In this document: positions 4,404-62,800 of the stretch, one piece after another
Position numbering within the stretch: position 1 is the first letter of the stretch
How the letters are laid out: every line of letters begins with the position of its first letter
Assembly: GCA_964035575.1 (NCBI GenBank)
Contig: OZ037906.1
Coordinates: 124,001 to 188,000, forward strand
Length of the DNA stretch: 64,000 bases
From: Rhynchopus sp. YZ270_cl-10
Taxonomy: Eukaryota > Euglenozoa > Diplonemea > Diplonemida > Diplonemidae
Direction: 5' to 3'
Notes under the pieces: model-generated
Databases searched by the model: none
What the model was told of the DNA's origin: nothing
What the model saw: only the letters and a program-made list of their open reading frames with translations
Translations under genes and position numbers: made by a program

Positions 4404-4436
4404 AAAGATGACCCCAAGCATGCTAAGTCACCTTTT
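4404..4436 (+). repeat. Family A stem-loop copy (diverged)
   Basis: The outer arms AAGATGA and TCACCTT flank an inner AAGC/GCTAAG core. Other family A copies are near 9933-9968, 10047-10088, 14701-14741, 21321-21357, 21768-21817, 28239-28279, 32045-32084, 44289-44329 and 62371-62411, with partial copies near 21436-21455, 33391, 33507 and 49821. All are written in this orientation on the + strand. Confidence 0.6.
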
Positions 4437-4511
4437 GAACAATATCTGCTTGTTGAATTTCTACAAAAAAAAAAATGATCCTAAGCAAATAGAAGATCGT
4501 AAACGAAAAGA

Positions 4512-4624
4512 AAGTTGACTTGAAATACAAAAGAAGCCCTCTCGTGAACAGTGTACCTTTGGTACAATGACCGGCTGTACCGGGGGAGGGTGGACAACTC
4601 ATCCATTTCGTGGTTTGCATCTAA
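4512..4624 (+). repeat. Family B repeat, long copy 1
   Basis: Shares about 110 bp with 5458-5570. It contains TTGACTTGAAATACAA, then a CCCTCTCGTGAACA loop, GTGTACCTTTGGTACAATGA, and a shared tail ending CATTTCGTGGTTT. The arms TACA and TGTA can pair around the loop. A related tail is at 12219-12293. Shorter copies are near 9785, 9868, 20127, 27820, 31972, 37799, 38098 and 60601. Confidence 0.7.
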
Positions 4625-5457
4625 GAAAGGACGACCCTGCGGCACAGTGTGTACAACATCTGGCGTCTCATCATCGAAGCAGCAGAATGCTACCGATGCA
4701 GGCGCAACCCCTTTGCTTCGCGGGTGACCTGGCACTGCACACAGGCAAGACAAAACCAGGAGAGGATGAAAGCCCTCAACAAATGTTGTCTTCTTCAGCC
4801 CCAGCTTCTTGACCGCTCCAACACTGTTTTGCAAGCTTTGCAAAACAGAATAGGTGGCATACTATAGGATATAAGGGTAGGAAAGTGGTAAAAGGGAATT
4901 CTTTTGGCATAAGAATTTGCAACGTGCTGCATAGTGCCAAAAAAAAAAGAAAAAAACGCGATTCTAGACAGAAAAGAAAAAAACAAAACAAAAAAGACAG
5001 ATTGTCAGATGATAAGCTTCGCAATACTTACTCAGCCAATAAAAGAATCTCACGAAAAAAAAATGGAAACCCCATATAGGACGAACAGAAAAGTCACACA
5101 CAAGAATCTAAAAAAAAAATGTTTGAAGGAAAAAACAGGCTCGGGAGTATCTGGGTGGGATTCAGCTCATTTTTTTCCCCCCGGAATTTTCGCACTTTCC
5201 CCCTAATTTTGTACACAGGGGTTTTTGGCCCACTTTTGGTGATGCAGGTGCGGGAGGGGTGTTCCCTGGTATATGGGGGGAACCTTTATTTCTATTTTTC
5301 ATGTAGCACAATCCCCCTCTACCAGAGGAACGCTTCGTGCACATGATGTATTTTTTTCCCCCCTTCCGAAAACTGTAGACACCCGAGGAGCTCCACTATA
5401 CTGAAATACATAATCACACAAAAAAAAGTGAAGTTGATAGTGCCAACGCAAAATAAA

Positions 5458-5570
5458 AAGTTGACTTGAAATACAAAGCCCCTCTCATGAACAGTGTACC
5501 TTTGGTACAATGACCAGCTGTACCCCAACCATGCAGTCCTACAATCCATTTCGTGGTTTACCTCTGATAT
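5458..5570 (+). repeat. Family B repeat, long copy 2
   Basis: Second long copy of the unit at 4512-4624, with loop variant CCTCTCATGAACA and the same TTTGGTACAATGACC segment. It differs from copy 1 mainly by an insertion after the GTACC palindrome. Confidence 0.7.
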
Positions 5571-5637
5571 GTGCTACTCCCGCTTCCACGAAAAGTTTGT
5601 ACCCTTTGAATCTCACACAGCCATCTTTATTACAATC

Positions 5638-5702
5638 GTTTTTTTTTTTTTGAAAACTTGGTTGCATTAGTGCAGCCACCCGAGGATGAACTCCACTACA
5701 AA
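5638..5702 (+). repeat. Family D repeat copy
   Basis: A T-run followed by TGAAAACTTGGTT, then TTAGTGCAGCCACCCGAGGA and an AACTCCACTA end. Other copies: 10341-10402, 32990-33053, 33061-33122, 40848-40897, with a partial copy at 5368-5399. GAG...CTCC near the 3' end can form a small hairpin, and in the 33061 copy the change to GGAGT...ACTCC keeps the pairing. All copies are in the same orientation. Confidence 0.65.
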
Positions 5703-5790
5703 AGCCCACCCCAATATCCTCCACACCACAGAAAGAACCTACAATTCTTCTGCCCTTTCCCACAAATCTATCCACCCCCCCCCCCCCCCC

Positions 5791-6972
5791 TAGGGGATAC
5801 GACTCCAGCCATTTTGGCTGGGACCAAACGCACGGAAAATTCATTTGGCATTATCTGGCCATCTCCAAGGCAACTGCGGGTGAAAAACACCCTCAGAGTG
5901 GGTCACAGGGGGCCTGTGGGTCGAAAAACGACCCAGAAGCCACCCCAGAATACAAAAAAATGGAAAAAAATAGTGAAAAAACGGCTTTTTTCACGTTTTG
6001 GCCACTTTGGGCAAAATAGCGATTTTTCGAGAAAAAAATCAAAAACCGGGATATTTTTTGACATCACAAAGCCTCCTTTGGCACAAATATACCCCAAAAG
6101 TGGCCTGTGAGTCCATTCCAACCTGTTTTGGACATATTTGACACTTTTGGAAGTGTTTTTTTGGTGTTTTTAGGTCAAAAAAATGCCCAAGACGTCCCCA
6201 AGACATCCCCAAGACACTTTGCACACCCCCTGTTACGGTCATATTTTTTTCGTTTTTTTGCCTGAAACCCCCAAAATACCCCTCCCGGACCCCACATAGT
6301 CCCGAATATCCATCACACACCCACTCAGAGTGAGTAGAAGCACCCCAAAAAAAATATTTTTTAAAGCCCTAAAATTGTGCTTCAGTTTCGGCAGCATCCA
6401 TGTTGAAGTTGAAGGGCTTTAAAAAATATTTTTTTTGGGGTGCTTCTACTCACTCTGAGTGGGTGTGTGATGGATATTCGGGACTATGTGGGGTCCGGGA
6501 GGGGTATTTTGGGGGTTTCAGGCAAAAAAACGAAAAAAATATGACCGTAACAGGGGGTGTGCAAAGTGTCTTGGGGATGTCTTGGGGCATTTTTTTGACC
6601 TAAAAACACCAAAAAAACACTTCCAAAAGTGTCAAATATGTCCAAAACAGGTTGGAATGGACTCACAGGCCACTTTTGGGGTATATTTGTGCCAAAGGAG
6701 GCTTTGTGATGTCAAAAAATATCCCGGTTTTTGATTTTTTTCTCGAAAAATCGCTATTTTGCCCAAAGTGGCCAAAACGTGAAAAAAGCCGTTTTTTCAC
6801 TATTTTTTTCCATTTTTTTGTATTCTGGGGTGGCTTCTGGGTCGTTTTTCGACCCACAGGCCCCCTGTGACCCACTCTGAGGGTGTTTTTCACCCGCAGT
6901 TGCCTTGGAGATGACCAGATAATGCCAAATGAATTTTCCGTGCGCAAAAAATGGCTGGAGTCGTACCCCCTA
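5791..6972. mobile_element. Foldback element: two ~580-bp inverted arms
   Basis: The left arm (5791-6370) and right arm (6413-6972) are near-identical inverted copies around a 42-bp loop (6371-6412). They differ by a few substitutions and short indels, for example an extra ~12-bp unit near 6190-6210 in the left arm and extra bases near 5813. Both outer ends abut C-runs in the same direction (about 5775-5790 and 6973-6988), as a target duplication would look. Open frames inside mirror each other and look non-coding. Transcribed, it would make a very stable hairpin RNA. Confidence 0.9.
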
Positions 6973-7056
6973 CCCCCCCCCCCCCCCCCATTCTACCCCT
7001 CTAAAACCATCCCCTTCCCCCCTTCCCCCCTTCCCCCCCTTTCCCCCCCTCCCCCT

Positions 7057-9202
7057 CTACGGCACATCTAAGGCGTCATCTATCGGAGATATACCTAGGT
7101 CGTGTTGCATGGGGGAGGGGTTGGTGTCGCTGCCAAAGCGCCTACCTGCACCTGGACCTGCCATGTGTTGTCTTGTAGAGTCGGGGGAGTGTGTGAGGGA
7201 TGCGTGCTGCAGTCCTGTGGTGCCTCTGAACTGCGCGACGACAGCAGACGACTCGGCCCGCACCGCTGCAATCTGCGTGGCCGCCTCGTCCGCTTCCGCC
7301 AGCATCCGTTTGCGTTCCGCCTCCCACAACCCTGCTTCATGCCTCGCCTGCTTCTTCACATCCTCCTTCTCTTCCAAGGCACGTTTAACAAGAACCAAAA
7401 GACGGTTTTTATAATCCCCCTCATCTGCAGTACCGTCCACACCCAAGAAGGCGTCTAACGAAGCAAGAACGGTGGTAATGGTTTGCTCCTGGTGGGGATG
7501 TTTTGATGGAATGGGGGAGGGGGGGGAGGAGTGAGGAAATTATGTAACATACCTGCACCTGCGGTGCCTCCTTCATCCTCTGCAGTTCACTGTCCTTCTG
7601 CTCAAAGTGTGTCCGAAACAGCGTGAGGTCCGACGACAGCTCTGCCACCTCTTCGTGAAGGGCGTTGATTGTATTTTGCTTCTCCTCCAGCGCACAGCGC
7701 ATATCGACTTGCACCTTGAGCAGTGTCTCTTGGTGTTCCCCTGCGGCCCCCGCACCTTGCTCCTCTACGTATTCAGAGAGACGTGCGAAGTCCTCCTTCA
7801 GCAGACCCACCTGAGACTCAAGGAGCTGCTTCTCCTCTGCGAAGATGTTGCACCGTGCGTTCGCCTCATCCGCCTCACGCTTCAGATGCAGCAACAACGC
7901 ATGCGCCTCCGCCGCAGAGCTGTGTGCAGCACGCAGCTGCGCATCGCTGTCTGCAAGCTGCGCCTTCAGGTGCGCCTCCACAGCCGTGGTGGTGGTGGTG
8001 GTGCTCTCTGCACAGGCGAGGCGGTCCTGAAGGGCCTCAATCTTCTCATCCAAGAGGGAGCGCTCCTCCCTCACGCTGGTGGTGTGCATCGCAAGCTCAC
8101 GACTGACAGATTCGAGCATCCGCGTCTTTGTCTCCAAAGCCTCCTGCAGGACGGTCACTTCCTCTGCACTGCGCTCTGCGCTGCGCTCTGCAAAGGACAG
8201 ACTAGCACGAAGACGCACTGTACGCGCCTCTTCATGCTGCAGGTTGTCTCTGAGCACCTGCACTTCATACTGCGGCACGACCTCTCCCACCTCTGCCTTG
8301 CATGCCCCTGCGTTCGCCTCCACCTCCGCCCCCATCTCTCTCGGTGCAGGCACGCCCAGGGGCGCTGTTCCAGAGGGACGGTCCATCGGTTGGTTGGCAC
8401 CCCTTTCATACGCCCGCTCGCTGTCTGCGGTCTCCTTCCGTCTTTCTAAGACTCTTGAAGTGTCCTGAGTGTGTTCTGTGAAGGTAGAGATGGCAGCGCC
8501 AGCCTGCGCTTCAGAGAGTCTACGGCGAAGTGTTGACTCTGGGGTCGATGCGGCGCGTGTGTAGGGGGGACGGCGTGGGGGTGTGTTGTCCCTTGCTGCA
8601 TTGTGTGTGTCGCTAGCAGGCTGTGTGGTTTGAGCTTGACCAGGCATCTTGTCTAACTGTCTTTCCAACGCCGCCATCTTCCCCTTTAAAGAGGAAATTC
8701 TCGACAACGTTTTGGTATGCGTTGGTGTCGGTGTGCCTGCATGAGGCCGCACCCCTCCCTGCCTCTCCTCCTTCGCTTCCCTCTCGAACACGGTGCTGCC
8801 TACTGAGGCGTCGCGGAGAACGGCGTACACTTTGTTTTTGTATGTGGTGGTTTCGGATTCGTTTGCTGGGGTGGTGAGCACTCTGGAGACGCGAGAGGCG
8901 GGTGGGGTGATGGGGGCGGGGGCAGGGTCGGGGCGGACTTTGTTGGGGGTTTGGATGCGGCGGGTGGGTGCGGCGGTGTTGCGTGGGGGCTCGGAGGCAG
9001 AGGCCATGCTGCTGTAGTGTGTGGAGTCGTAGGAGGAGCGTCTGCTCGCGAGCGACGGCAGCGGGGCGGTGTAGAATTGGCTGCCGGAGGAGTGGCCCGC
9101 AGTGCTGTCGCTTGCAGAGCTCTGGAGCGAGCCCAGCCCTGTCACCTCCGTGACGCCCCCCTCGGTCACGACAGCGACAAGAGGCTTTCGTCTGTCGCTC
9201 AT
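7057..9202 (-). CDS. Coiled-coil protein, 693 aa, one intron
   Basis: Exon 1 is 9202-7553 and exon 2 is 7488-7057. The 64-bp intron (7552-7489) starts GTATGT, ends CCACCAG and is phase 0, so the frame passes cleanly from ...EAPQVQ to EQTITTVLASLDAFLG. The first ~200 residues are Ser/Thr/Pro-rich and disordered, with runs of charged residues. From about residue 320 onward the protein is nearly continuous heptad sequence rich in A, E, L and R, typical of long coiled coils. No enzyme domain is visible. It may be a structural partner of a basal body, flagellum or cytoskeleton, which is inference only. The start is the first ATG after the AT-rich 5' flank. Confidence 0.85.
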
Positions 9203-10943
9203 TGCAAAAAAAATCTGAGGTGCTCCCTCAGCTTAAAAAAAGGGGGTGTTTTTTGGGTTGAATTTTCAGAAGTGCATGTGTGTCGGGTGGTTTTGTGTTC
9301 TGAGGGTTTGCTTGGGTTTTTATTGGGTTTTGGGAGGGGAAAGGGTTGTTAACAAAGAGGTGGGAAATAGCGTGCTCCTCCACAAACAAAACTGAACACT
9401 CCGTGAGTTCTAACTAACAGCTAAGGACACTTGGCGTTGGGGAGAGTCTATTCAGCACTTGACTCTGACATCATTACCGCATACCACTCGAACACCGCTG
9501 ACCACTTGCATCGCGGTCAAGGTTGGTGCCCCTTTGATACTGCTGAAGAGGACTAACCTGAACACCTTCTGCAGGACTCTATCTCTGCAATGGAACACGC
9601 CCTATTGCGACTGTCACCGTTACCTCGAAGAAAACATATGGGAATGTGGCAATGTGGGATTGTTGTACAGAACTGAACATGGGGAGGGGGGAGCCTCCAC
9701 GGGGGGGCGTGAGAACGAAGTTGCTTTTTGGTGACGAGCCCAAGAAAGAGGAGGGCTCGCTTCAATAAAATAAATAAAAACACTTGAAAGAGGAACGCCT
9801 CATGGTACACTTTGTTGAACATAAAAGCGAGGTGCCTGTAAACGCTTGAGAAAAAAAAAGAATATAAATTGAAAACGTACAAAGCCCTCTCGTGACTGTG
9901 TACCATACCGTGACAAAAAGAAATGTTTATTTTAAGATGAATCTAAAGCCTTTGTGCTTAGTCACCTTGATAAAAAAAATAAAAGGGTAAGTTTTGTAAG
10001 ACAAACCACAGCAGCACTGTGCGTGGTCATCTGGGAAAAAAAAAACGTTTAAAGCCTCAGATAAAGCAACATGCTTAGTCATTTTGATCACAATCGTTAG
10101 CGGACAGTATCTACTGAAGAACACTTTGAAAAGGTGAACGTGACTCTCGTGCACACACACCCCTCTTAACTCAAACGAAAGAGACGTTCAAGGTGCAAAC
10201 TTAGGCCGTCTATGATCGCCTCCGTAAGACACGCAGAGCTTGTGAGAAGTCTGTGAGATCGTACTGAGAGCTAATGAAAAAAAATCTCTCCCCCCCCGTT
10301 CATAGATGGGCCCAAAACTGAAATATGATATTTAAAAAAAAAACGTTTTTTTTGAAAACTTGGTTGTTTTAGTGTAGACACCCGAAGATGAACTCCACTA
10401 TATTTTTTTCTTCGAGAGACCTTCGCTACATCCTTCCCTCTGATCGGGAGGGGGGGAAAGTAGGGGGCGGGGGGGTGTTTTAAATCTCGTGACCCTCCCC
10501 TGCTCCCCACAACGAACCGACATATGTACAAAAAAACCTTCTGATTCCTCAGTGAAGAAGAAACGCGGTATTTTTCTCTCTCTTTGGGAAATCTCGTTTT
10601 TTTTCCATTTCATTGTTACAAAAGTAACAATAAAACCACCTTTTTTGGTTGTTTACTTTTGTAACAATAATTTGAAAAACGAGTCTTCCCTTTTCTCTAT
10701 TCTCTTCTATTTCATCTCAAAAAAAGGGGGTTTTTTTCTCAAAAAAAAATAGACAAAACGGATTGCATAAAACAAAGCTAGATTTGTAACAGTACATCCC
10801 TCCCCCCCCCTTTCCCAATGGTTGCAGTGTGGATTGCGAGTCTTGAAGAATCTATCAAGAGAAAGGACCGTTGATTGAGTATTCTTGAACAAAGGAAAAA
10901 AAACACACACATTCCAACACCCCGCGTTCCCTTCGTTGTTCGA
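9203..10943. other. Spacer with dispersed hairpins, no supported gene
   Basis: Contains family B fragments near 9785 and 9868, family A copies at 9933-9968 and about 10047-10088, a family C hairpin at 10129-10164 and family D at 10341-10402. The rest is homopolymer-rich. Short open frames look random. Confidence 0.6.
10129..10164 (+). repeat. Family C stem-loop copy
   Basis: AAGGTGAACGTG, loop ACTCTC, then GTGCACACACACC: the arms GTG/CAC and GGTG/CACC can pair. Other copies: 21229-21266, 21871-21903, 22451-22486, 34906-34938, 60430-60467. In the best copies the outer arms are AAGATG/CATCT and the inner arms GTGC/GCAC around CTCTCGT. All share one orientation. Confidence 0.65.
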
Positions 10944-14596: not shown

Positions 14597-15975
14597 GGCT
14601 GGGAGAGGGGAGGGGAGGAGGGGGGCGCTTTGTGTTTCCTGTGCAAGGTGGATGCGTGGTGGAGGGTAGGAGTGGGCAGAAGTGAGAAGAAAATGAACAG
14701 TTTATAAGATGACCCTAAGCCGGCAAGTGCTTAGTCACCTTATCATATTCGTTATCGCACAGCAGAAGAAAAGTTGAAGTTATGAAGTGGATATCTTAAT
14801 CCTAAAGAAAGTGAAAGGTCATCGACCCGTAAACCCGTAAAACGAGAGGCGAAGAAGGGGACGCTGCGGGGTGATCTGTGCAGTGTGCCTTCTACCAAGG
14901 TAGTCGGCATGCACAAGCAGCGCAAAGGGTTTCGTGATGGGACCGACACTACTTTCCTGGAATCCCTTGCAGCGCTAGGCGCAAGAAAGAAACGGGATGT
15001 TAAGAACCCCCCAGCCCTGTGCAAAAACACTGTTCGGCACCACGACAAATACGCGGGAAGACTGTCATACGTTCGCTTCATGGAGCAAGAGGGGTGACCA
15101 AGGTGGGACTTAGTCAGGACGCAGGCTCGGGGGTGAGGCAGCAGCGTGGGGTAAAATTCGAGACAGTGTGTGTCTCAGTCCCAAACCCGAAAATCGTGAC
15201 CGAGTGCTTCAGGTAGCTGATACAGGGATGACACGTGGAGGGGCCGCTGAGCGCAAAGCAGTCCAGATTGAGAGCCTACGGAAGGACTTGGAGGAGAACT
15301 TCGGCATGGTGCCAGTTGCGATGACAGTGGACCACAAGGCGTCGTGCCGGCCACGGCGAAACTGTGCCAGCTCCCTGCATGCGGGTGTAACATAGGAACG
15401 ATGGACGCTATGTAGTAAGATAAGAAGAGAGGGGTGACTGAGGGTCAAGAAAAGGTAAGTTGTTTTGTTTTTTCATTTTTCGTTGTGGTTATGTGTGCTC
15501 CCCTCGCACCCCCTCTCCCAGCTTTGTCCTAGATAATCACCATTACCTCCTTTGACTTGAAACACAGAGAGACCCGGAAATAGGGCTCCCTTTTTGTTTT
15601 GGACTTCTTCGACACTGTAAACATGCAGAAAAAGGCGATTTCGTTTTTTGCTTTGGGTGCAGCTTCGACAAAAAATACTCTGTAATACAACACAATAAAA
15701 AGTGGAGATTGCACAACTGTGGCAACACAGCCGAGGCAACTACACTACTTCAACAATTTGTCAAAAAAAGATGAAAAAAGAGATGTGAAAGAAAACAACA
15801 CATTTATCGGAGAAACTCAAGCCTTTCGTGTTTCATCCTCCTCCTCCTCTTCCTCAAAAAATGCCTCAAAACACGGAGTTTGCATTGGGCAGATGTTTAG
15901 TCACCTAGCAATACAACACTATTTTTCCTCTCAAAACCCCCTCCCCTTCTTCATCCTCCTCTCCTCTTCATCTCC
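14597..15975. other. Spacer with hairpin, possible gene relic and family G repeat
   Basis: A family A hairpin lies at 14701-14741 with a changed loop (CTAAGC CGGCAAGT GCTTAG), so the stem is kept while the loop differs. From about 14870 to 15400 the DNA is GC-richer, with short + strand open frames (14885-15097, 15168-15395). These do not join into one gene and may be a relic. At 15704-15769 is a family G repeat (GAGATTGCACAACTGTGGCA, then CCGAGGCAACTACAC), also at 61077-61137 and, in part, at 61420-61452. Confidence 0.5.
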
Positions 15976-19224: not shown

Positions 19225-22200
19225 TTTAAAGGAGAGAGGTCAACGTTGTAAGATAGTTTTTTTTTCAAGAAAAGGTTTATATTAGTTCCCTAGGCAGGGG
19301 GATGTCGCAGGCAGAGAGTGATGCAGGATGCGGCAGCAACAACAGCTTGCTGAGATGCAGTCCAAAGCCTCAAGAAGAAAGAGATGAGGGAAAATAAAAA
19401 AAAATATGGCAATGTAGGGGAAATGTGTGCGAGATATCAAGACGCTTTTGTTTTTTGGGTAATTCCCTCAGTATTAAAATGGGAAAGGGGTGTAGTGTGT
19501 GTTGTCTGTGATAGGAGGAGTGGGTGTGGGGAGGGTTAGATTGAAGGGGAAAATATGGTTCATTTTTTTATTGTTTTTCGAGAAAAAATGGGCACACTTC
19601 TTAGAAAAAAAGTGGAGAAAGGGGAGAAAAGAAAAAAAAAACGTGAAAGGTTGGAGAAAAAAAGGGGGAAGGGTGCGGTGAAACGAACACAGCTGTGCAC
19701 GATGGGGGCACCAAGTAGAGAAGAGAGTACCTACCATTATTGACAATACCATGAGGCGGGGTTCTGTGTATGCAATGACACCTTTCAAAGGCTGGGGCTT
19801 GCAGACAGCTTTTTTTTTGTTTTGTTGATGCTCCTGACGACCCCATATTGCGCACTTCTTGCGCACTTAGTGGGTGGTTGTCGCGTACTTGGTATTTTGG
19901 ATTTCTGGGTACCATTTATTTTATCTTTTTTTTCTTTGTCGTTTTTTGATATCATTTGTTGGTTGTAGTGCAGACCGCCATGCAGACCGTCTTTTCACTA
20001 TCCATGCACACCCCAGAGAAGGCATGCCACGCAAATTGAAACAGTTCTCCGTGGTTCCCCCGTGGTTCTCCCGTGGGTTGTCCGTACCCCCTGAATCACA
20101 CCACAAATATCTTTAAAAAAAAAAGGTTGACTTGAAAATACAAAGCCCTCTTGTTGACAGTGTACCTAAAGGTTCATGACATTCTTCCTCTTCTTCTTAG
20201 CCACCTTGAATAGAATGAACAGGGACTGAACAACATACAGAACGTTGTACTCTGCGACTGACAGTACTCTGAACCGTAAGAAAAACAAAAAAAAGGAAAA
20301 TGGAGTGCCAACGCTTGTACGCAGGCACCGGGGGGGAAATAAGGAGGGGAGACAGGGGAATAGGGAGTGTTGTATTCGTACGGTCGTGCCAAATACAATC
20401 GTGAATACCCTTTTTTTGATAACCTTGAAAAGACGGTCGGCCACAAACTAAATGCTTCATTGCTACCCTTCGTATCCTCCCCACCGATTCACAAGATATA
20501 ACGTGATGTGGTGTACCAGTGTACCTGTGTACTGTGTGATGTGCGGAAATGACGAAAACTTGTCCATTTCGGCAAATTGACCCCACCACTGGCCGGACGG
20601 ATTCCGGAAATGCAAATGCCGGCGTTTAAAAGCTTCACCAACGAGAGAAAAAAGGGTAGGAAAAGTTGTGAATAGTTGTGAAAAGTTGTGAATTGAATTG
20701 AAAATTTGTGAAATGCATACCCCCCGGGAAGCACCATAGATGGGTTTTAAATAATGTTATAACTTACCCGTTGGGATTTAGATAATATTTTAACGAAGAG
20801 ATGAATGAGAGCTTCAATCGTGTACCGACAGATGGAACAAAAAGATGTTGGTAAGATGTGCCCCACAAAAAAAAGGGGGGGAAATGGGGAAGTTGGGGGA
20901 GGCGGAAAAAAATCGGTAAATAATGATGAACAATCCTCGGGGGTTGTACATTATTAAAAAAAAACGTTTTTCTCCCTCCTTCAAAATTGAAAAAAATGAA
21001 CCCAGACAAAAATAGTGTTGTCGAGAATTGTGTAGTTCCTCTTTTCTTTTGTTTGGTTTCTTGTCATTTTTTTTTTTTTTGTCATTTCAGGAAAAATATA
21101 CGTCTGTGAGAACAGAGAAGACCTGAATGAAGCATAAATACAACAAACAACAAAAAAATTTTTTTTGAAAAGAGATCGTTCCACTGTTCGGAGATATCTT
21201 TGCAAAAAAGGGGGAAAGGGAAAGCTTGGAAGATGAATGTGCCTCTTGTGCACACACATCTACATAAAAACAAAATTTCTTTGAAATATCGTTTTGCTCT
21301 TTCAGATGAAAGAAAGAAACGTTTATAAGATGATCCTAAGCCTCTCGTGCTTAGTCTGATTAGATTACTTAATGTTTTGAACATTGGTTATTCATCAATC
21401 TTTTTTGTTGTATTTTTGGATCCTTTTTGTTTTGTTCCTCTCGTGCTTAGTCACCAAAAAATAATCGATATAAACATGTTCCGACATCTCCTTGGAGTTG
21501 CAGCAGAATTGCAGCAGACAACAACCCAGAAAACACAAACAAGAATGGGTCAGGGTAAATGAAGTATTTCCAGTGATTTGGGGTTTGCTTTCTCTTCTTT
21601 TTGCGGATTCGTTTTGCACAACAATGTGCCTCCACAATCTCTAGAGAAAAAAATGTGTAAATCAAATTGGGTGGGGGCGGGAGGGGGGCGTCTTTTGTGT
21701 ATTGCATTTTCCTTTTTGAGATACTCTATATGACATAAAAATCGTTTCATTTTTCTTTTTCAAAGAAAAATTTATGAAATGAATCTAAGACTCTCCTGTT
21801 TTCGTCACCTTCATCACAGTCGAATTACATCAGTTGACTGTGTCTGAAATTGTTGTCGGGGACGATGTCAAGCCTGCGAGATGAATGTTCCTCATACACA
21901 TCTTAGAAAAGTTGCGCGAAAAAAACGCCAAAATAGACGCAAGAAAAGAATAATTTCATCACATGCAATCAATAAATTGATAGTTTGTGGTGAGGGATCA
22001 ACAAAAATGTTTCCGTCTTTCTAAGAAAAGAAAAAAAAGACAAGTTGTGTGTGAGTTTGGTGGGGTGTGCAGTAACTGGGTACACCCCATTTCCAGCACA
22101 AGTGGTTCGGGGGAGGGTACTTTGTGAGGGCTTTGTGTCTATATTGCCTTGCTTTTTTTTCATGCCCTCATTTTTTTTGTGGATTTTGTGAGCTTTTTAT

Positions 22201-22603
22201 AAAAGCGACTGAAATAGTCTGCTGATCGGTGAAGGGCTGCAAAAGCCCAACCCCAAAAATAAAATATGATGGGTGTAAATGGAAAGTGAAATAGGTTTGG
22301 TGGGGGAGAGGGTGGTACGGAGTTCCCATCCGGAAGGGATGGAGAATAAAAGAAAAACGGATCTTCGTGAAAATAAATGTGGGGGAAAACACAAAAAAGG
22401 TTTTGTAAACCAAAAAAACAAATACAAAAAAATACAAGACGGGGGACAACAAAGGATGAACGCACCTCTCGCGCACATACATCTTCAATAAAAGATAAAA
22501 ATTGAAAGGGTGAATAAACAAACATACAAGTAAAACGGACGTCACGGAAATGAAAAAAAAATGCTCGACCCACTGCCGTCGTTGCCGGGAAAAATAAAAA
22601 AAA
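19225..22603. other. Long AT-rich spacer with dispersed repeats
   Basis: Contains a family E repeat (19826-19917), family B (20127-20166), family A at 21321-21357, 21436-21455 and 21768-21817, and family C at 21229-21266, 21871-21903 and 22451-22486. Between these are homopolymers and short random frames. No gene supported. Confidence 0.6.
19826..19917 (+). repeat. Family E repeat, copy 1
   Basis: About 85 bp shared with 32427-32525: GCTCCTGACGA, CCCATA, then ACTTCTTGCG-ACTTAGTG, GTTGTCGCGTACTT and TTGGATTTCTGGG-TACCA. Both copies are in the same orientation and both hold a GCGCA/TGCGC-like repeat that could pair. Confidence 0.7.
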
Positions 22604-22622
22604 ACGGCCGTGAAAAAAAAGC

Positions 22623-27025: not shown

Positions 27026-29050
27026 CCTGTTTCAAATATGTTGTTTTGGTTCCCAAAAAAAAAGGGGGAAAACAAATGAAAGGAATAAATCGGGAAAAAA
27101 AAAAGGGGGAAAGGGAAAAAGGTGGTCAGATCCCGTTTCTGAAAAAACACATGCAAATGGGAGTGGAGGGTACTTTTGTGGAGTAAAAGTACGAAAAAAG
27201 AGTTGGAAAAGAAAACGGAACCGGGGAAAGAAAAAAAAAGGGGGAAAAGCCCCTTTTTAATGGTAGATCCCCCCCGCCTGGAGAAAAGTGGTGTTGATGA
27301 AAAATATAATTTCCCCCCCAAAGTGTGACTAGAGCCCAACAAAGAATCGAGCCGAAAACCTTGTTATTGGCGTTTTCTGCAGTTCCTCCGTTCGTACGGT
27401 GGTTCTGACTGGGGGTCCTCTTCCCTGTGGGTGAGACTCAGCCTTGCTATGGATATGTTGTCTTATCCGATGCAACAGTTCCAGCATATCACAGATGCGT
27501 GGAAGATTGATCTAAAGAGAAAAGAGCAAACACCTCTGGTGCCTCGGGTGTAGACAACACAGTGAAAGTGACAACGTGACACCTTCTTCAGACAACAGCA
27601 CCACTGCCAAACATGTGGATGTCAGCAGTGCTGCCACTAACGACGAGATTGAAGTGTTTGAAGGGGCGGTCATGGAACAGCAGGTCCCCGTTCCCGTCCC
27701 CTTCGTCAGGGATTGCGAGGAAGCCCTGCCCGCACCAGAGCGTGTCTCTGTCACCACACAGAGGGAAGGGGAGTCGTTGCGTACCCCAAACCCAAAGCCC
27801 GAATAACAAAAAAAAAAAGTTGAAAGAGCAAGCACCTCATCGTTCATAGGCGGACGCAGGGGACTGGGCTGGGATCTAAATAAAGAAGAGGATATTGTGT
27901 GGCAGTAAAGGGAGGGGTGACGCTTTGGTTTTCATGACATTAGCGATAAGACGTTGACTTAAAGAAGAAGAAGAAAATAAGAACACTTTTGTAAATGCAA
28001 AGTAGCATGTGTGAAAAAAAGCAAGGGCAAAAAAAAAAAAAATAAAACAAAAAGCTGTTTCCGAGCTCGCCAGTTTTAGAAAAGAAAAATGAAATGATAG
28101 CCTTTTCGTGCAACACATTTCTATAACACTCTTGACGCAACATGCCATTTTTGGCGGTTATTCGTCACTCTATCCGGTCTATGTGGGTGGGGGATATAGT
28201 GGAAGGTGTGGGGAAAGGGGGGGAAAAGAAAGAAAAATGTTTACAAGATGATCCTTAGCCCCTCGTGCTTAGTCACCTTGGATAATAAAAACGGAAAGGC
28301 GGCTGGGAAACTTTAACAAAAAAAAAAAGTGAAAGGAAATGATGCATTTGTTGTTTGGATGATATTTTGTTATACCATATGCCCTGACCCCTAATAGAGT
28401 GAAAACAAAATGTCTCCCGAACAACAAATGAAAAAGACAGAGTCTTTAACACAAAACGTTTTTCCCTCTTTGTGACACAATATTAAAAAATAAAGTTTTG
28501 AAACGTGGTGATTGGAGCCCACAATGGGCGGACATTGTTTCGGCACAAAGAAAAACAAAACAAAACAAAAAATAAGAAGAGCAACAACAGAAAATAGAGA
28601 ATTATCAAAAGCTATTGCAGAAAAGAAAAAGGGAAACCCCTCCTTACTATCCATGTTGAAGCAAGAAGGGAAGAAAAAGCAAAGCAAAGCAAAGAAAAAA
28701 AAAACTTAAGGTTACGTAACATATAAGAAAGTAAGTATTTTGCATCAAAATGTTTGAAAACATGCATTGAAAAGGGAATCACAAACACAGGCCCTCGAAG
28801 GAACCTTGTGTGCCGTCTGCGAGAAAAGAATCTCCATCAATTTTTTTTTTCTTGACAGAGGTTGATTTTCCTCACAGGGTACGCATAAAAATCACTCCCG
28901 CGAAAATAATAACCGAGAATGTATATTTTACAAGGCAAGAAAGCACCTAGAATTTTTTCTCTGTTTTCTATCTTTTTCCTATGAAATAAAACTCAGAAAA
29001 AGGGCAAAAAAATCGCCTCTTTTTTGTGGAAAAGCCAATTCAAACCATTT
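27026..29050. other. Spacer
   Basis: AT-rich except for a coding-like stretch at about 27448-27806 (listed separately). Family B fragment near 27820 and a good family A hairpin at 28239-28279. Confidence 0.55.
27576..27806 (+). CDS. Possible small ORF on the + strand
   Basis: The frame reads like a real acidic protein tail (TNDEIEVFEGAVMEQQ, then RDCEEALPAPERVSV) and ends in TAA, but its only start in this stretch is GTG. An upstream ATG frame (about 27449-27552, MDMLSYPMQQFQHITDAW) could be an earlier exon; a GTGTAG...TTCAG intron is possible but does not join the frames well. If real, it would be the only + strand gene here. Confidence 0.2.
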   Translation: MTPSSDNSTTAKHVDVSSAATNDEIEVFEGAVMEQQVPVPVPFVRDCEEALPAPERVSVTTQREGESLRTPNPKPE

Positions 29051-31419: not shown

Positions 31420-33569
31420 TATTACCCACCTTGGTGGGACTCAAAAACGCTTCAAAAAGCAATGCAAAAGGCTAGAATACCTACTACTTAAAAAAAAAAT
31501 ACCCACAAAAAAACCCCTTCCCCCACAAATAAAAATAAAATAAAAAATCTACTTCAGGAGGGTAAACGAGCCCATAAAAAAGAAAAGGCAGAGGGGATGG
31601 GGAGAGTGTTTCAAAAAAAATGGGCTAAAAAAAGGGCATGGCAAACTGAACAAAAAAAGTAATACCGCCTCAAAGTCCGCAGTGGTGGGTGCGTCTGTTG
31701 TTAGGTGGACAATCATTTCATCTTTAAATAAATTCCAGGAAAAGAAAAACACGAACAGATCAGTGAGAACTATTGGTGCTGTGTTTTTTTCCAAAGAAAA
31801 CAATCCTCCATCCTGTATCATGTGCCAACCTCCTGATTTCTAAATAAAAAAGGGCTTGCTTTTAAAGAAAACACAAAAAAGAACAAAGACAAAAGTTTTT
31901 TTTTTCATTTGCAACGGTAACGCCAATCCTTTGCTGTGCATAATAAAGACCTCAACTCAAAAATAAAAAAAGGTGACGTTGATACAGTACAAACGCCTCT
32001 GGAACGCAGGCACTGACACTCCGCGGGGGGGAAAAAAAGAAAAGTTTATAAGATGATCCTAAGCCTCTCATGCTTAGTCACCTTAAAGGGGGTGCTGGGA
32101 ATGCGAGAAACAGATAACAAAAAAAAACGCCCCCTCCGTCTAAACCCTTCGTCCCTTTTTTCGTGAGAAGCAAAAATTTTTTTTGACGATTTGAAGAGTA
32201 TGGAAAAAGAGACGATGTACGGAGGGAATTTTTTTTTTTTATTGCTTCTCTTTTTTCTCTCACCCCCCTAGCTTCGCGACAAAGTCCTTCTCTCTCAGGG
32301 AGGCAAGGGAAAAAAATGTTAAATATAAAAGAGAGAACGACAGAGTCGTCTACAAGCATTTATTTTTCTTTGAAAATAAAAAAACCTTTTGTTGTAAATT
32401 ATTTAGTGCAGACGCCAAGGATGCGCTGTGCTCCTGACGAACCCATACGGCGTACTTCTTGCGTACTTAGTGCGTTGTTGTCGCGTACTTTGCTTTTTTT
32501 TTTTTGGATTTCTGGGGTACCAGCTTCACCTTTTTTTGTCTTTTGATAATCCATTAGAGGCGAATAGCTGCCGCAAAAACAGCTCGTTTTGATAATTTGA
32601 AAAACATCATTGCACAATTAGATTCATGTACAAAAAAAAAAAAAAAACAACAAAACAAAAACGGTCAGTGCGCAGGGCTGTCTGCTTGTTAGCGAGGGGT
32701 CAGACATTTCCTGTATATTCTATGGTTGGAAGACAGTAATTTTATTTTGTTTTGTTTTTTTTTTACCCTTTCTTTTACCCCAACTTTTATTGCATTTCGT
32801 GTATCGACAACTATGAGAAGGTGGGTAAGAGGTTTGCTCTGGTCGTATTTGGTGTTGCCATTTGTTTTGTGTTGCTACTTTTTTTCACGACATACGCACA
32901 AAAAATCCGCACCTTGAGTGCTACCAGATAAGTCCTTCATGATCCGAAAATGAGTGACTCGCATCTTCCCTTTGTTACGCAAGTTGTTGCTTTTTTTTTG
33001 AAAACTTGTTTACATCAACATCAGTGCACACACCCGAGGATGAGCTCCACTTTTTCAACAATTTTTTTTGAAAACTTGGTTATATTAGTGTAGCCACCCT
33101 GGAGTATCATACACTCCACTTTTTTTTTTTTGTAACTTCCAGGCCTTCAATCTCTTCCACAACGTTTCAACGACATGCAGACATCTCAAAAAACCAGATC
33201 TATTTAAAGGGGGAAGGGTACAGTAACACACACGTTTGGCTGAACTGTGCCTCCAATGGGGTAAGTATCGATTATCACAAAAATGCGGAACAAAAAAAAA
33301 AGGTTAAAAAAATGAGTAAATACCAAAGGCTCAGTGGTCCACTTTGGAAAAACCTTTGACAGTATGACTAATGACTACTACAAAATAAATGTGTTTATAA
33401 GATGATTAAGAAATGCTGCATACCCACAATAAAGACCTGAGACTGGGAATGGGTGCAGACATGTAATAAATGGCGAAACAACAGAAAAAAATGGGGGGTA
33501 AGTTTTATAAGACGAACCTTAGCCGTGATTTAGCCAAAAAAAAAAAATCAAAATAAAATATGAGTGAAA

Positions 33570-39748: not shown

Positions 39749-41186
39749 GGTGGGGGGTGGGGGGGTGGGGTCTGGGGGGAGTTAAGGATGGGTGGAGCGG
39801 TTTGGGTTTGAGATAGGTGAGATAGGTGAGAGAGAAGAGAGAGAGAGAGAAATTCTACCCTCTTCTGCTAACCTGCATCTCCCAAAAAAAAAAGATCCCG
39901 ATAGATCTGAGAGTGACCCGTACACCTGCGCTGCTGCCACGAGGATTCATCATGCACTCACGAGTCAAAAGACCGTGTTCTTCCTGTTCAGCGACAGGAA
40001 CATACCGGCAAGCAAATCGCTACTCAGGGGGTACAACAGACTTCCGGGCAGACTGTTACACAGAATGTTCCTACGCATGTACCCCAAAAAAATACTACTA
40101 ATCAGAGGAAGAAGCGTGCATCGCAGCAAACTGACGCAAAAAAAAAAAAAAAAAAATAAGGAGGACAAGTGAAGTACCTCTTGCGCAACAGTCTCGTTCT
40201 ATCACGACTTTATTGTGCATATAGAAGACTGCTTCGACGAAAGGAGGAGCACCGCGCTTCTCTGCACCATGAGGGGGAGGAATGGTGGAACATAGGCCGA
40301 CGTCTTATGGCGTCGGTACGGGTGGGGCCTGAGTACAACGAGTGGCGGGGTAATGAGTGGCTTGACGTGATGTCATTGCGCAAGCCACGTCATGATAACG
40401 TGGGTAAATTCGAGGATGTGCGTTCTCAGCGGCTCGTACTTGATACAATGATTACAGAATGAGGTGGTACTGGGGGTTACATAAACAGTAGGATTACTGA
40501 TACTATAATATGAATCGATAGATTTCCCGATTTCCCGAAAAAAGGGGGGGAGGTTCTGGAGTAGTGTTTGCATTTCTTTTGTTTTTTTCTGCATTTTGGA
40601 GAGAAAAAAAAAAGGGGGAAAAAGCTCCGCATTTTTCCTTGCGACAAATTTCAAGATAAAGAAATTTACGACTAACACAGAAGACTCATGATGAAGTACA
40701 TCTACAAAATAGTATAGGAGACTCGTAATAAAAAACACCCCCACACACACTCCACCCTATCCGTTGCAAGGTTGAGTGGGATCCATTGTAAGGTATCAAC
40801 AAGCCTCTTTTCAACGGGCGATGTTTTTTATTGTTCTTTTTTTTTTTTGAAAACTTGGTTTCATTAGCATAGCCACCCTAGAGAGTGCTCCACTATACTA
40901 AACACTTTTACGTCACCGCAGTTTTTTTTTTGGTTTTACAATCCGCACGCCCGGCCCAGACTCAGTCTATACCGGACCCACCCCTGAGCCGCCAGGCGGA
41001 CTCTGAGAAAAGCAAACATGATTGCGGGTCCGCCGATCAGTCCGCTCCAAAAACCCTAAGCTGACCCCCCAATCTTTGAAATCTGAATTCCAAGATAAGA
41101 CACCGTGAGAAGAAAAAAAAAAAATAAATCACACAAAAACACGGAAACCCCCTAATACCCCGCCCCCTTTGATTCGGTTGAATCCC
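39749..41186. other. Spacer
   Basis: Contains a GC-richer stretch (about 39890-40470) with + strand open frames of up to ~125 codons. The best, 40169-40462, begins with GTG and shows no domain; it may be a relic. Family D copy at 40848-40897. GC-rich inverted segment near 41000 (GAGCCGCC/GGCGGACTC). Confidence 0.5.
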
Positions 41187-44216: not shown

Positions 44217-44631
44217 ATTTTACGCGGGGTGTGTTCTTCCTGTGGTGTGGAAAGTGAATCCTTTGGATGCCTGCTAACAAAAGAAAGGTTTATAGATGTC
44301 ACTAAGCCTCTCGCGCTTCACGTCACCTTGATCACATCCGCACAAACACTCCTCTGAGTGAGACCTCGCTTTGCATGATAACAAAAACTGAGCTTTTTTT
44401 GTTGTGGTTGTCGTTTCGTTCTATCTTCAAAACAAAGCAAACTTAGAAAGGTTAGGTCCCATTCTCTCCCCCCCCACCCCCTACCCTTCTTATCCTCCCT
44501 CACATCTATTTTACCCCCCACATTCCCCCAATTCATTTTTTTTTCAAAATTTCCTTCAAAACTCCACTCATTCTCAACCACCCTCCCTCCTCCTCCTCCC
44601 CCTCCCCTCTTTGAGGGGGAACACCTCTTTT
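44217..44631. other. Spacer with family A hairpin
   Basis: Family A hairpin at 44289-44329 (CTAAGC CTCTCGC GCTT, then CACGTCACCTTGATCAC). The rest is pyrimidine-rich 3' flank of the ABC transporter gene. Confidence 0.6.
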
Positions 44632-55680: not shown

Positions 55681-55708
55681 GTCTTCGTATGGTGCGCAAA
55701 GACACCTT

Positions 55709-58532: not shown

Positions 58533-58671
58533 CGTTGTCTTTTTGTGTGTTTGAGGTCTTGTCTGTGGCAGAGGGGTGTTGTGTATGTGTGAGAGGTACA
58601 CAGGACAAAGGGGCGGCAGCTTCCACAGCAGGAACGTGGTTGACAACAAAACCCAGATTGCTGGTTGCTGT

Positions 58672-58745
58672 TGAATATCACCGGGGTCTGGTGGTTAAAA
58701 AGTCTCCACAGAGTTGGGAGGTAAACCGTGGAGTTAATCCGGTTG
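58672..58745 (-). promoter_or_regulatory. 74-bp conserved upstream element, copy d
   Basis: Identical to copy a except for its first base or two. Lies 140 bp upstream of the protease ATG. Confidence 0.65.
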
Positions 58746-59320
58746 GAGGTGAACAAACAAGAGGCAAATCAGTGGAGGTGAAAGATAGCAAAGAGGAGTG
58801 GTGTGGATTTGGACTTTTTGAATACAACATATTTGGGGAATGTGGAGGGTGAAACAAGGGTGAAGGGTGAAGGGGAGGCAGCTCACAAGCAGCAAGAGGC
58901 CTGCACACAGCTCATACGTGTGGTCTTGTGTCCAAGTGCAGGCGGGGTGCAGCACGCAGCATGTGGTTGTGGGAGTTATGTGCGAAAAGGGTTAGCTTCT
59001 CCTCCCACACCACACACATCGCACACACACCCCACCAAAGCTGGCACCACACGGCTGTGTGCAGGCTTCTCCTCTCTCCTCTCTGGCCACTTCCAAACAC
59101 AGCAGGTTGCACAAAAAAAGAAAAAGGCAGATTCATAATCAAACTCAAACCCAAACGTCAGCAACAGGAGCATAACATAACATCGGATTGAGCAAACACA
59201 AACGCAGGGGGGAATGCGGTACAAACAAAATGCGGCGACAATCAGGCCACACAGCACTCGTGTGCGCTATCAAAAGGAACACGTTGTTGTGCAGGCCCAA
59301 CAGCAGCAGCACTGCCCACC

Positions 59321-59599
59321 TCAGTAGTACGGCGAGTACGCAGCAAGACGTGCACGGCGCACAGACGCAGACAGCGCAATGTCGCTTGCCACAGCACTCG
59401 CGTGTGCGTTTGCAATCGCTGCGTCTGCTGCGTACGGGTACGACGAGTAACGCGGCGACAGCGGCACGTACGAACGTGCAGCCGCAATGTCGGCAGCCGC
59501 ACGTGCACTTGCGGCAGCTGCAGCAGCTTCAGCCGCAAGGATCGACGACGTGTACGACGGGTATACCGGTGCCGGTGCGTAGTACGGGTAGTAGGACAT
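59321..59599 (-). CDS. Tyr/Ala-rich small protein, copy 3, 92 aa
   Basis: Differs from copies 1 and 2 by one visible change (ILAAEAAA in place of ILAADAAA). The DNA of gene, 5' leader and 3' region is otherwise nearly the same as unit 2. The 74-bp element (59781-59854) is 182 bp upstream. Confidence 0.75.
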   Translation of the reverse strand: MSYYPYYAPAPVYPSYTSSILAAEAAAAAASARAAADIAAARSYVPLSPRYSSYPYAADAAIANAHASAVASDIALSASVRRARLAAYSPYY

Positions 59600-59780
59600 C
59601 TTCTTGTTGTGTGTGGGTGAGGTGTTAAGAAGGGTGTGTGTTTTGTCTGCAGGTGTGTGGTGTCGTGGTGTTTGTTGGAGAACAGAAGTGTGCACGAAAG
59701 GCAGAACTAATCAAGCAGCTTGCACAGGTGCGGGCATCTGATTTACACAAAGGACCACTGCAAGAAGCGGAATCGATATG

Positions 59781-59854
59781 CGAATATCACCGGGGTCTGG
59801 TGGTTAAAAAGTCTCCACAGAGTTGGGAGGTAAACCGTGGAGTTAATCCGGTTG
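59781..59854 (-). promoter_or_regulatory. 74-bp conserved upstream element, copy e
   Basis: Identical to copy a. It serves Tyr/Ala gene copy 3. Similarity to the other units stops at its right edge. Confidence 0.65.
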
Positions 59855-62800
59855 GAAAGATGTGATAGCGGCAACATACTTGACGAACGCTCCCAGAACA
59901 ACAACACAAGGGGGCGAATCATTACTTTATTTTTGAAATTGACAAACTAGCGCATCACATCTCTTGACGATAGCCGTCTCTGCCCATAACTACCGCGATA
60001 GGATGCGGAGCCTTGAACAGATCTAATAAAAAGTAACAAAATTTTGTGACATCGGACTCGGGTCCTTTGCCTGGTCACCTTTAACTAATGCAGCAATGTA
60101 CCACCCCCACGCCCGTTGTTGCTTTGGAACGCACAGAGCACATTCTTCTTTTGTGGAAATCTAAATAGCGACGTAACTCTGCCCTTGAAGAAGTCCAGAA
60201 TCAAAACAGTGATAATATTGAAGAAAGAACACGCACACACTTTGGGGGCCATATTCTGCGCAAGAATTACCCCCCTATTCGTTATCAAATACACACACAC
60301 GATTGAAAAGGTGTCCTCTCGTGCTGTCACCTCGAACAAAAAAATGAAGGAATAATAACAAACTGCCGAGTAAGCGAAACAGGGATTATCAGAGGAGACA
60401 GTTTGTTGTACAAAGAAAAAGAATACTTGTAAGATGGATGTGCCTCTCGTGCACACACACACACCTCAAAAAAAGAAACAGTAACGTACAAGAAGCACAA
60501 TGAACGTACTTACGCGACCCACCTCCCCGTGTATTATCTGGAAATGGAGGACGCGTGGTTCATACAGAAGCACAATCTTGAAAAAATAAAATAAAATAGT
60601 AGTTGAAAGTACAAATGCCTCTAGAGACACAGGCACCGGGGGGTAAAAACACGCCAAGCAAAGAACAGATTTCTTTTAGAAAAATGCGAGGCTTTTTTAC
60701 TTCCTTTTTTTGTTCTTTTTGTCACATTTTGTTTAAGCAAATAATGCGACACTCTTATATTCGCTGTCCCTTCATTGCCTGACAACCCGGTTAACTCCGA
60801 GACGTATTTTTCACTTAACCCGGAGCTTCACCAAGAAGCCAACGGGATAACCACTTCGCCTTCTCCAGGTAGCATACGATGGCACCTACTCACAGGGTGC
60901 CAATTACCATCGTTGATAGAGCACAGGTCTTGATGTAAGATGTTTGACCCACAGCCAACGCTATGACATTACGCCATCACGAAAAACCGTGGCACCTTAC
61001 GTTTTAGGGTGGGGTAGTATGGTAAGGACATATTCACATAAGTGGAGACAACACACTAACAGGGGAAAAAAAACAGTGGAGATTGCACAAACTGTGGCAA
61101 CACAACCGAGGCAACTACACAACAATTTATCAAAACAAAGAAACACTTGAAATGAATCGGGTGTGCTTCGTGCTTCTTGTGCACATTACACAGAAAAAAA
61201 AGGGGTACGGAAAACGCACAAAAACAAGACGTAGGCTGAAACGTTGTCGCTTGCCGACCTCCCCTCCCGGTAATCATCAGAACTCCTCATCTGAGGGCAA
61301 GAAGCGCTGCACTGAAACGCCCACGAAGCAACGCAGCAACGCGCTTAGCACGACCGAGAAAGACGGCCCGCGATCCGAGGCTATTGCATGTGACCTCAAG
61401 GGACTCGGGCTTGCATAGGGTGGCAACTACACTATTCCAACAATTTTTCAAAAAAAAAAAAAAAATGCCACCTTTTCGTCGCAAAACACTAAAAGAAGTG
61501 CCATTTTGGATGGGGAAAAATAGCACTTCAGTTTTCGTTGTGGGTGAAGAGAATGGTGGCAAAAAAAAACACACGGTCTTGCCGTGAAAGAGAAAGGGTG
61601 GAGTAATTGATGGACGATGTTTTTTTTTTTTTTTTGTTTCTTTTCATTTCTTATTTAAAAGTGGGAGTTGAAGGGGAATAAATGGGCGATCTGCCCATAA
61701 AAAGGCGGGAAATGCTAAGAAAAACCAATTTTTTTTGTTATCACAAGGATAGCAACCACGATTTTTTTTTCGTTCTTCGCGGGATCCAAAAAAAATAACA
61801 AAAAAGCCCAATTTTTTCGTTGTCTTGGGCAGGATATTCCACCTGATTTTTACCCAGTGTATAGGCACGAAAAGGCGCGTACAGGCGCATACAAGACTGC
61901 ATAGGGTCGTACGTGGCCTGTACCGCCTATCGCGGCCAGGAAAACAAAAACAAAAAAAAAGGTTATAGTCACAGTGCCACAAAGACAAAAGCTGGGGAGG
62001 CTCTCCTATACATTGTAGACGGAGAGCTTCATCTCATCCCTAAAGGAATACGACAGATACGAAGTGAACAGGACAACTCTGGTCTGACAACATCTCTTAT
62101 GATGGGGGACTCGGGGAGCGGCAGACTACTCAGGGGACTTGGATCATATTGTAGTAGAGCCACCAGTCCACATGACTAGTGTTTTACAACGATAGTGTTA
62201 GCAGTAACACTATAGTCGTTACGACTAGTAGTTCCCCTGAAATAGTCGTGAACGTGGCAACCTTGTTTTGCGTTTTTAAGAATTTTTTAACAGAAAATGG
62301 TTCGTTTGATTGCAGACTGATAACAGCATAACAGCCACGATTTATAGAGAGAAAAAAAAAGATAAGAAAAGTTTATGAGATGACCCTAAGCCTCTCGTGC
62401 TTAGTCACCTTAAGCTTGGTCACAGAGACAAGCTTTCGCGTTGGCACTTCACAGGAAAGTTACCACAATCACAAAAAAATCCCCCCTTTTTTTGCGATTG
62501 TGTCCCTTGGTGTGTGACCCTCGGGTAGACGCGGTCACAAAATGCCCCCCCCTATCTCTCACAGTCAGATGAACGGCGGGGGTCATTGGGGGGACACAAT
62601 TCTGAGGACTGAAAAAAAAGGAGGTGCAAAGGAAAGTCGCTAGAAACAACAAAAACACCCTTTTTCCTTGCAAAACAAACAAAAAAAAAAAAAAAAAAAA
62701 AAAAAACAAATAATGATCAAACACAGCAGAACACCCCTCCCCTCTAAAGTAAACTGTGCCAAATGTCTATTTTTTTTCTGTATTTTCATGGACATAATAC

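Follow-up and report, generated by a model that had tools for sequence, protein, structure and literature searches.

The closest described counterparts of the elements analyzed here are UnaL2, ZfL2-1, and ZfL2-2, from stringent pairs of long and short interspersed elements (LINEs and SINEs) that combine an endonuclease–reverse transcriptase protein, a hairpin in the RNA 3' tail, and shorter elements with tail features in common. Comparable features are found for three families of short hairpins (A, B, and C) dispersed through a 64,000-nt stretch of contig OZ037906.1 of the diplonemid Rhynchopus sp. YZ270_cl-10 (the window, W). ZfL2-1 and ZfL2-2 of zebrafish (PMC4176376) set a precedent for recognition through the loop with exchangeable stems, matching the pattern of one loop on several stems seen here; replacing the ZfL2-1 stem left about half of the activity, whereas replacing its loop caused a dramatic loss. 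The diplonemid elements differ in their loop, CACGAGAGG (GNRA-type in A and C), in a T-rich 3' flank, in copies that often comprise little more than the hairpin, in a near-strict orientation relative to host genes, and in that recognition by a protein is proposed by analogy.

A second comparison is with SIDER1 and SIDER2 of Leishmania, extinct truncated retroposons of another euglenozoan. These too are dispersed, truncated, located in polycistronic clusters, and mostly sense, with a sense excess that PMC2689281 puts at typically 4-fold; their orientation is biased rather than near-strict, with antisense copies predominating in the stretch from poly(A) to splice sites. By contrast, the diplonemid has a LINE family whose open frames are long, and its repeated unit is a short hairpin. 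The genome paper on Diplonema papillatum (PMC10161547) mentions, in the passages covered here, abundant unexplained dispersed repeats and LINE-1-type genes, and those passages contain no word starting with “hairpin”. Literature searches, which covered open-licence PMC papers, returned no title or opening of an abstract in which these elements are described.

We conclude with good confidence that the hairpins are 3'-terminal RNA stem-loops of non-LTR (long terminal repeat) retrotransposons, namely a LINE and its shorter relatives. The observations behind this conclusion are the anatomy of the copies, a LINE frame with a reverse transcriptase (RT) domain, the fixed spacing between frame and hairpin, a ladder of truncated copies, one insertion documented by a pair of empty sites, T-runs more frequent upstream of A copies than in the background, and co-orientation with host genes. 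What looked like a puzzling RNA family would then be a defined LINE/SINE-type tail in little-studied, abundant marine flagellates.

Hairpin families and the LINE that carries family A

The genome of this single-celled flagellate comprises 152.4 Mb in 126 contigs. Genome-wide counts are complete, and places are the first 100 listed per pattern; DNA was read letter by letter in the window and in ∼300 kb of samples (including parts of contigs C1, C2, and C10 and the loci designated L), in which gene models are crude.

A preliminary description of the window had noted dispersed hairpins with different stems and with CTCTCGT or close variants as the common loop, and such hairpins are real. The window has 13 occurrences of CTCTCGT, compared with an expectation of 5.9 (2 of 100 shuffles have as many), and contains CCTCTCGTG at ≤1 mismatch 29 times against 12.1 (no shuffle of 100 has as many); the exact 9-mer occurs 5744 + 5725 times genome-wide, compared with 992 + 924 for a reversed control. 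The loop is not invariant, since copies found by their arms have others (9928–9968 and 14700–14741), and by eye several of the 13 CTCTCGT matches are not hairpin copies (13174 and 31148; 11382, 14842, and 20641 on the minus strand). The strand first assigned also has to be reversed. Except for one weak C-like match, the window copies have CCTCTCGTG on the plus strand, while host genes occupy the minus strand, which holds 16 of the 17 window frames of at least 250 aa (overlaps removed). Copies and genes therefore share the minus strand, and the RNA loop in the direction of host transcription is CACGAGAGG.

RNA folding agrees with this strand. On it, the A hairpin reaches −12.6 kcal/mol (z −4.1) and the C hairpin −15.8 kcal/mol (z −5.1), each with 0/200 shuffles as good, whereas A on the opposite strand is weaker (−7.6, z −2.1, 10/200). 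B is marginal (−7.9 kcal/mol, z −1.9, 8/200), and a diverged hairpin at 60308 is weak (−6.4, z −1.5, 18/200). The consensuses on the transcribed strand are:

A: AAGGTGA-CTAAG-CACGAGAGG-CTTAG-GN-TCATCTT-ATAAAC, then T-rich
B: AGGTACA-CTGTT-CACGAGAGG-GCTT-TGTATTT-CAAGTCAAC, then T-rich
C: AGATG..TGTG-CACGAGAGG-CACA..CATCTT-ACAAG, then T/C-rich

Single-sequence folding gives a lower stem of 7 bp in A and B and 6 bp in C, an upper stem in each, and an apical loop that is a GAGA tetraloop in A and C and an ACGAGA hexaloop in B. The motif ACGAGAGG is also the core of the sarcin-ricin loop of rRNA, probably by coincidence.

Some A copies extend upstream of the hairpin and agree with one another there. 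In contig C10, the extension is a reading frame that ends 13 nt before the hairpin, stop included (...VEASAAEAVR*, followed by CGAATATGAT and then AAGGTGAC). This 256-aa frame has no match in Pfam. Its last 226 residues (P0121) have 152 matches in the genome, of which, among the matches listed, 18 lie in open frames of exactly 1462 aa; the starts of the matches step along the query and their end is fixed at residue 226, so that the copies are truncated to different extents at the 5' side but share the 3' end. We entered 65 P0121-type C-termini that reach residue 226 (contigs C1–C76, the range covered by the 49-mer listing; two at 74% and 66% identity were left out). At 32 of them, and at 21 of the 22 with ≥99% identity, the identical 49-mer lies on the same strand at a distance of exactly 5 nt downstream; a cruder earlier comparison had given 14/24 on C1–C22 and 6/6 on C1–C5, where the listing was more complete.

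Within one score block, all 27 matches to the RT domain RVT_1 sit 997 or 1030 nt upstream of a P0121-type C-terminus. A database protein of 1347 aa (P0123, 96% to P0121) contains RVT_1 (E 2.9e-24) and Exo_endo_phos (E 8.5e-10) domains, and its closest solved chains are LINE-1 ORF2p (E 3.5e-18). A further protein, P0124, has Exo_endo_phos at E 4e-8; the endonuclease domain is known from these database proteins rather than from a genome frame. Family A is the 3'-terminal hairpin of an autonomous-looking LINE of the apurinic/apyrimidinic endonuclease type with a 1462-codon open frame. A sister LINE group (39–41% to P0121) has longest open frames of 1458–1508 aa; by eye, no B or C copy adjoins a frame of this group among the places listed.

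B and C have in common with the LINE tail the 9-nt loop, a like-placed lower stem, which is 7 bp long in B and 6 bp long in C, and an end rich in pyrimidines, whereas the tail sequence as a whole differs. B extends up to ∼120 nt, and its longest copies (12 of 24 by eye) start near CAGATGTAAACC, ∼88 nt 5' of the loop; ARAGORN found no tRNA-derived head in the B consensus or in the B copies whose output was shown. Long B copies, such as those at L007, L073, and L075, start with CAGATGTAAACC right after a pyrimidine-rich stretch, which would create a splice-acceptor-like site at the B insertion. B looks like a SINE and C like a sister hairpin, and both may be non-autonomous partners or tails of sister LINEs that use the same machinery; as no LINE with a B or C tail was found, their dependence on this LINE is argued by analogy.

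The copies in the window are as follows:

4405..4434, minus strand: A-like arms with a diverged loop (AAGGTGACTTAGC...GGGGTCATCTT on the minus strand), identified by sequence
4506..4558, minus strand: B copy, 3' part, loop CACGAGAGG
5460..5502, minus strand: B copy, loop CATGAGAGG
9886..9894, minus strand: loop of a diverged B-like copy (GTACACAGT-CACGAGAGG-GCTTTGTA)
9928..9968, minus strand: A copy, loop CACAAAGGC, found by its arms
10112..10164, minus strand: C copy (stretch aligned)
14700..14741, minus strand: A copy extended on the 5' side by LINE-derived GCTGTGCGATAACGAATATGAT, loop CACTTGCCGG, ∼100 nt before the start codon (ATG) of the Leo1-like frame, found by its arms
20126..20168, minus strand: B copy, loop region AACAAGAGGG
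21225..21261, minus strand: C copy, loop CACAAGAGG
21321..21361, minus strand: A copy with an altered 5' arm (AATCAGACTAAG)
21437..21455, minus strand: half A copy (GGTGACTAAG-CACGAGAGG, without the 3' arm)
21770..21811, minus strand: A copy, diverged
22434..22486, minus strand: C copy, loop CGCGAGAGG (stretch aligned)
28239..28279, minus strand: A copy, loop CACGAGGGG
32044..32084, minus strand: A copy, near consensus, loop CATGAGAGG
44287..44329, minus strand: A copy ∼70 nt before the start codon (ATG) of a DSPc phosphatase frame, then TATAAAC, a pyrimidine run, and AG
60309..60332, minus strand: diverged hairpin AGGTGACAG-CACGAGAGG-ACACCT (the 60308 hairpin of the preliminary description)
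60426..60462, minus strand: C copy
62371..62411, minus strand: A copy, near consensus

The placement of these copies bears on an alternative that we consider unlikely, in which the hairpin is a host cis-acting RNA element, perhaps retroposon-derived as are SIDERs, that acts in polycistronic pre-mRNA on stability, polyadenylation, or splice-acceptor choice and is kept in sense by selection. The near-strict sense orientation would fit, as would some copies that directly precede a motif containing A, then a pyrimidine run and an AG, before a gene (44287–44329; C1 at ∼2290). However, only two window genes have a copy within ∼110 nt upstream of their start (14700–14741 and 44287–44329), copies concentrate in long spacers with just two in the gene-dense 38–59 kb, distances to neighboring coding ends vary (under crude gene models), and loop and stems decay as repeats do. 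The median distance from element to first AG (34 nt in A, 22 nt in B, and 32 nt in C) is not shorter than in a small background (25 nt, 64 sites). Given only two window genes with a copy close upstream, a general role as trans-splice-acceptor element was rejected. Co-oriented hairpins of polycistronic genomes, we caution, need not be host regulatory elements.

Less probable still are introner-like mobile mini-introns with AAG/GTGACT at the 5' end and a pyrimidine run plus AG at the 3' end. These would explain the sense orientation; the 5' arm has GT at its base in both the A and B consensuses and in many C copies, the L038 locus described below and the copy at 44287 could be read as introns of 50–60 nt, and a probable cis-intron of a C10 gene contains one copy, which is not at the 5' splice site. 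Against this, none of the copies examined in W, C1, and C10 lies inside a predicted coding stretch, and most are in spacers distant from predicted coding sequence.

Insertion, truncation and covariation

Most A copies are extreme 5' truncations with little beyond the hairpin, often in T-runs. Among 452 identical 41-mers, 137 agree for a further 8 nt on the 5' side, and the remaining 315 either begin around the base of the hairpin or have a different sequence in that position. A T-run of at least 5 lies within 15 nt upstream of 21 of 47 A copies, compared with 9.9% of 6074 background positions. A search for empty sites across 85 candidate copies yielded one clear case, L038, in which a 5'-truncated A copy lies inside a repeat that occurs twice without it and is flanked by T-rich stretches sharing an 8-nt string; other rows were tandem or partial repeats.

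The same data leave little room for MITE-like elements (miniature inverted-repeat transposable elements), that is, tiny palindromic DNA elements mobilized by a transposase, with the arms as their terminal inverted repeats. By eye, the extended A arms form imperfect inverted repeats, and the 8-nt flank repeat at L038 would suit such an element, but A has one fixed end and an opposite end that shifts by hundreds of bases and reaches into a frame with an RT domain, a truncation ladder that largely refutes it. The hairpin also stands at fixed spacing on 21 of the 22 near-identical LINE ends, and by eye B has no such inverted repeats; of the readings weighed here we give this one the least credence.

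If the hairpins are LINE tails, as we favor, the LINE protein probably reads the loop CACGAGAGG, as suggested by the zebrafish L2-clade LINEs. It would bind the stem-loop, chiefly at its loop, its endonuclease would nick the antisense strand at a T-run, and reverse transcription would begin at the RNA 3' end and mostly halt just beyond the hairpin. The preliminary description had likened the conserved loop on paired stems to an RNA-recognized hairpin; this fits the tail of a LINE or a relative, and does not extend to an independent host RNA family. At one locus (L046), three hairpin copies stand in a row (C-like, A, and A-like), with T-rich sequence after both the first and the second, as if successive insertions had used the previous tail.

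Stem changes had also been described as often compensated on the other arm, with covariation as the proposed check and, as refuting outcomes, its absence or a single decaying transposon free of pairing constraint. Within A, paired cells make up 90.0% of the alignment compared with 89.7% in shuffles, with one both-sided change, and the copies are those of a dispersed retroposon that lacks covariation, one of the outcomes named as refuting. In 83 A copies for which inner stem and loop had played no part in the finding, 10 of 29 one-sided inner-stem changes keep the pair and 19 break it, and the sole both-sided change restores no pair. RNAalifold recovers a 6-pair hairpin from the C alignment, without any both-sided change. 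Both arms differ together only between the A, B, and C consensuses, a handful of events, so that compensation stands between families and not within A or C. At L053, the 5' arm looks copied from the 3' arm, by which apparent compensation could arise without selection.

A host RNA family was rejected, with no Rfam match at cut-off and no covariation within A. The preliminary description offered no named RNA family with this loop, in line with zero window matches at Rfam gathering cut-offs; below cut-off, two weak matches (E 0.3 and 3.2) both fall in one of 15 loci.

Several results weigh against the hairpins being LINE tails read through their loop. The exact 49-mer is missing at 33 of the 65 entered C-termini, as expected of diverged copies, and no LINE with its own tail of B or C type was found. 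Per-site change in the 83 A copies is 6.3% in the 5' arm (26/415), 5.1% in the loop (38/747, with CpG accounting for 17 of the 38), and 1.2% in the 3' arm (5/415), so that conservation of the loop does not exceed that of the arms. From the A alignment RNAalifold derived no consensus structure, and from that of B a different 4-pair helix. Target-site duplication in A is weak with wider flanks (mean longest shared string 5.87 vs 5.36 ± 0.18; 0/100 shuffles), weaker with 20-nt flanks (5.21 vs 4.92; 9/100 shuffles), and barely exceeds the null by a 10-mer measure; there is none in B, and some in C, on 9 copies. Beyond its 3' end, A has T-rich sequence in place of the short tandem repeats found in known stringent LINE tails.

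Orientation relative to host genes

Contigs C1–C31 with at least 5 listed elements show a single divergent switch from minus (left) to plus (right) in 25 of 28 cases, which suggests two arm-long transcription units. A search by arms only placed A on the minus strand in 35/35 cases from gene-minus samples (W 9, C1 16, and C10 10) and, in the mixed C2 sample, gave 5 plus and 1 weak minus. B was minus in 9/9 in W, C1, and C10 (2/2 in the window), with one plus and one weak minus in C2, and C was minus throughout but for two weak plus matches, one in W and the other in C1 (some C places being listed repeatedly).

We extended the comparison with kinase and ABC genes as anchors, scoring the first 100 places of each pattern as same or opposite strand to the nearest gene. 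Within 100 kb, same:opposite ratios were 13:1 for A in each of two lists, 18:1 for B, and 12:0 for C, compared with 3:17 for an unrelated repeat D. Within 400 kb, they were 38:10 and 39:6 (A), 42:6 (B), 45:8 (C), and 15:43 (D), exceptions being more frequent farther from anchors because strand switches intervene. Between two same-strand anchors, ratios were 5:0 and 10:1 (A), 9:0 (B), 13:0 (C), and 5:13 (D). Opposite cases within 200 kb adjoin strand switches, as far as other lists show, and one A copy (C1:1310442) is a lone copy among opposite neighbors. Scored against the nearest listed A, B gave 21:0 up to a distance of 50 kb and 32:3 up to 150 kb, the three exceptions being at one switch on C20.

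LINEs were scored likewise, with A, B, and C copies >5 kb away included among the anchors. Within 250 kb, P0121-type LINE ends gave 47:0 (of 65 entered) and the sister group 36:1 (of 52). Other RT groups, in our own grouping by frame length that leaves several out, gave 2:10 (1364 aa), 4:5 (1862), 3:5 (∼1320), 5:2 (986/1057), and 5:0 (1747), so that four of five are mixed. De novo spacer-repeat clusters gave 18:0 for A, 14:0 for B, 9:0 for D, 13:2 for another short repeat, and 6:4, 6:3, 5:1, 5:0, and 3:2 for others. Listed A, B, and C copies and P0121-type and sister LINEs are near-strictly co-oriented with host genes, an unusual and unexpected pattern.

T-run bias was rejected as the whole cause: sense T-runs of at least 9 exceed sense A-runs by ∼1.6- to 2.1-fold (W 45:29, C1 149:84, and C10 47:22), too little for an orientation of 35/35. 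The step that fixes orientation could be insertion or selection. Selection against antisense copies seems difficult to invoke for ∼45-nt remnants in long spacers, and identical copies, which are probably young, are already co-oriented, so that insertion is favored, short of proof. Tentatively, and with slightly less than even confidence, we propose as the boldest reading a eukaryotic LINE clade in which the direction of transcription or of the replication fork guides target-primed reverse transcription, so that new LINE copies, hairpin-only truncations, and SINE partners would all land in the direction of host genes. If so, hairpin-only copies (∼41–55 nt) would be among the shortest retroposons known.

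Coupled insertion would need the fork-following orientation described for IS200/IS605 and Tn7, in which element orientation follows the direction of replication; these are DNA transposons without RT, unlike the LINE here. The review reporting this (PMC5371812) also states that LINE-1 ORF2p binds PCNA, and the passages covered here mention no orientation effect for LINEs. Several hundred listed copies, near-strictly co-oriented on mostly single-switch contigs, amount to a natural experiment on how LINEs choose the strand for nicking.

Other features of the DNA

Protein matches of the window indicate a diplonemid: its cathepsin has its best organism-named matches in Diplonema papillatum (64% and 56%). 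A diplonemid spliced-leader piece has 740 genome matches at ≤1 mismatch, many in tandem-array spacing, and two exact ones among the matches listed. The two exact matches to the spliced-leader-like 18-mer (L034 and L035) are not array-like in appearance and are possibly retroposed mRNA 5' ends. By eye, the window holds a long palindrome at ∼5850–6950, a near-perfect inverted repeat with ∼0.5 kb per arm. Three frames met in the samples are:

L030:5251–6312, minus strand: Tc1-like DDE_3 frame
L010:1767–3329, plus strand: frame with DUF659 and a weak BED finger
L020:4863–5933, minus strand: frame with a phage-integrase-type recombinase domain

A further short repeat, GAAAACTTGGTTGTATTAGTG...CTCCACTA, has 2257 exact 24-mers genome-wide and lies mostly, not strictly, opposite to host genes; its window copies are:

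5644–5698: short repeat
10346–10400: short repeat
33062–33116: short repeat
40841–40895: short repeat

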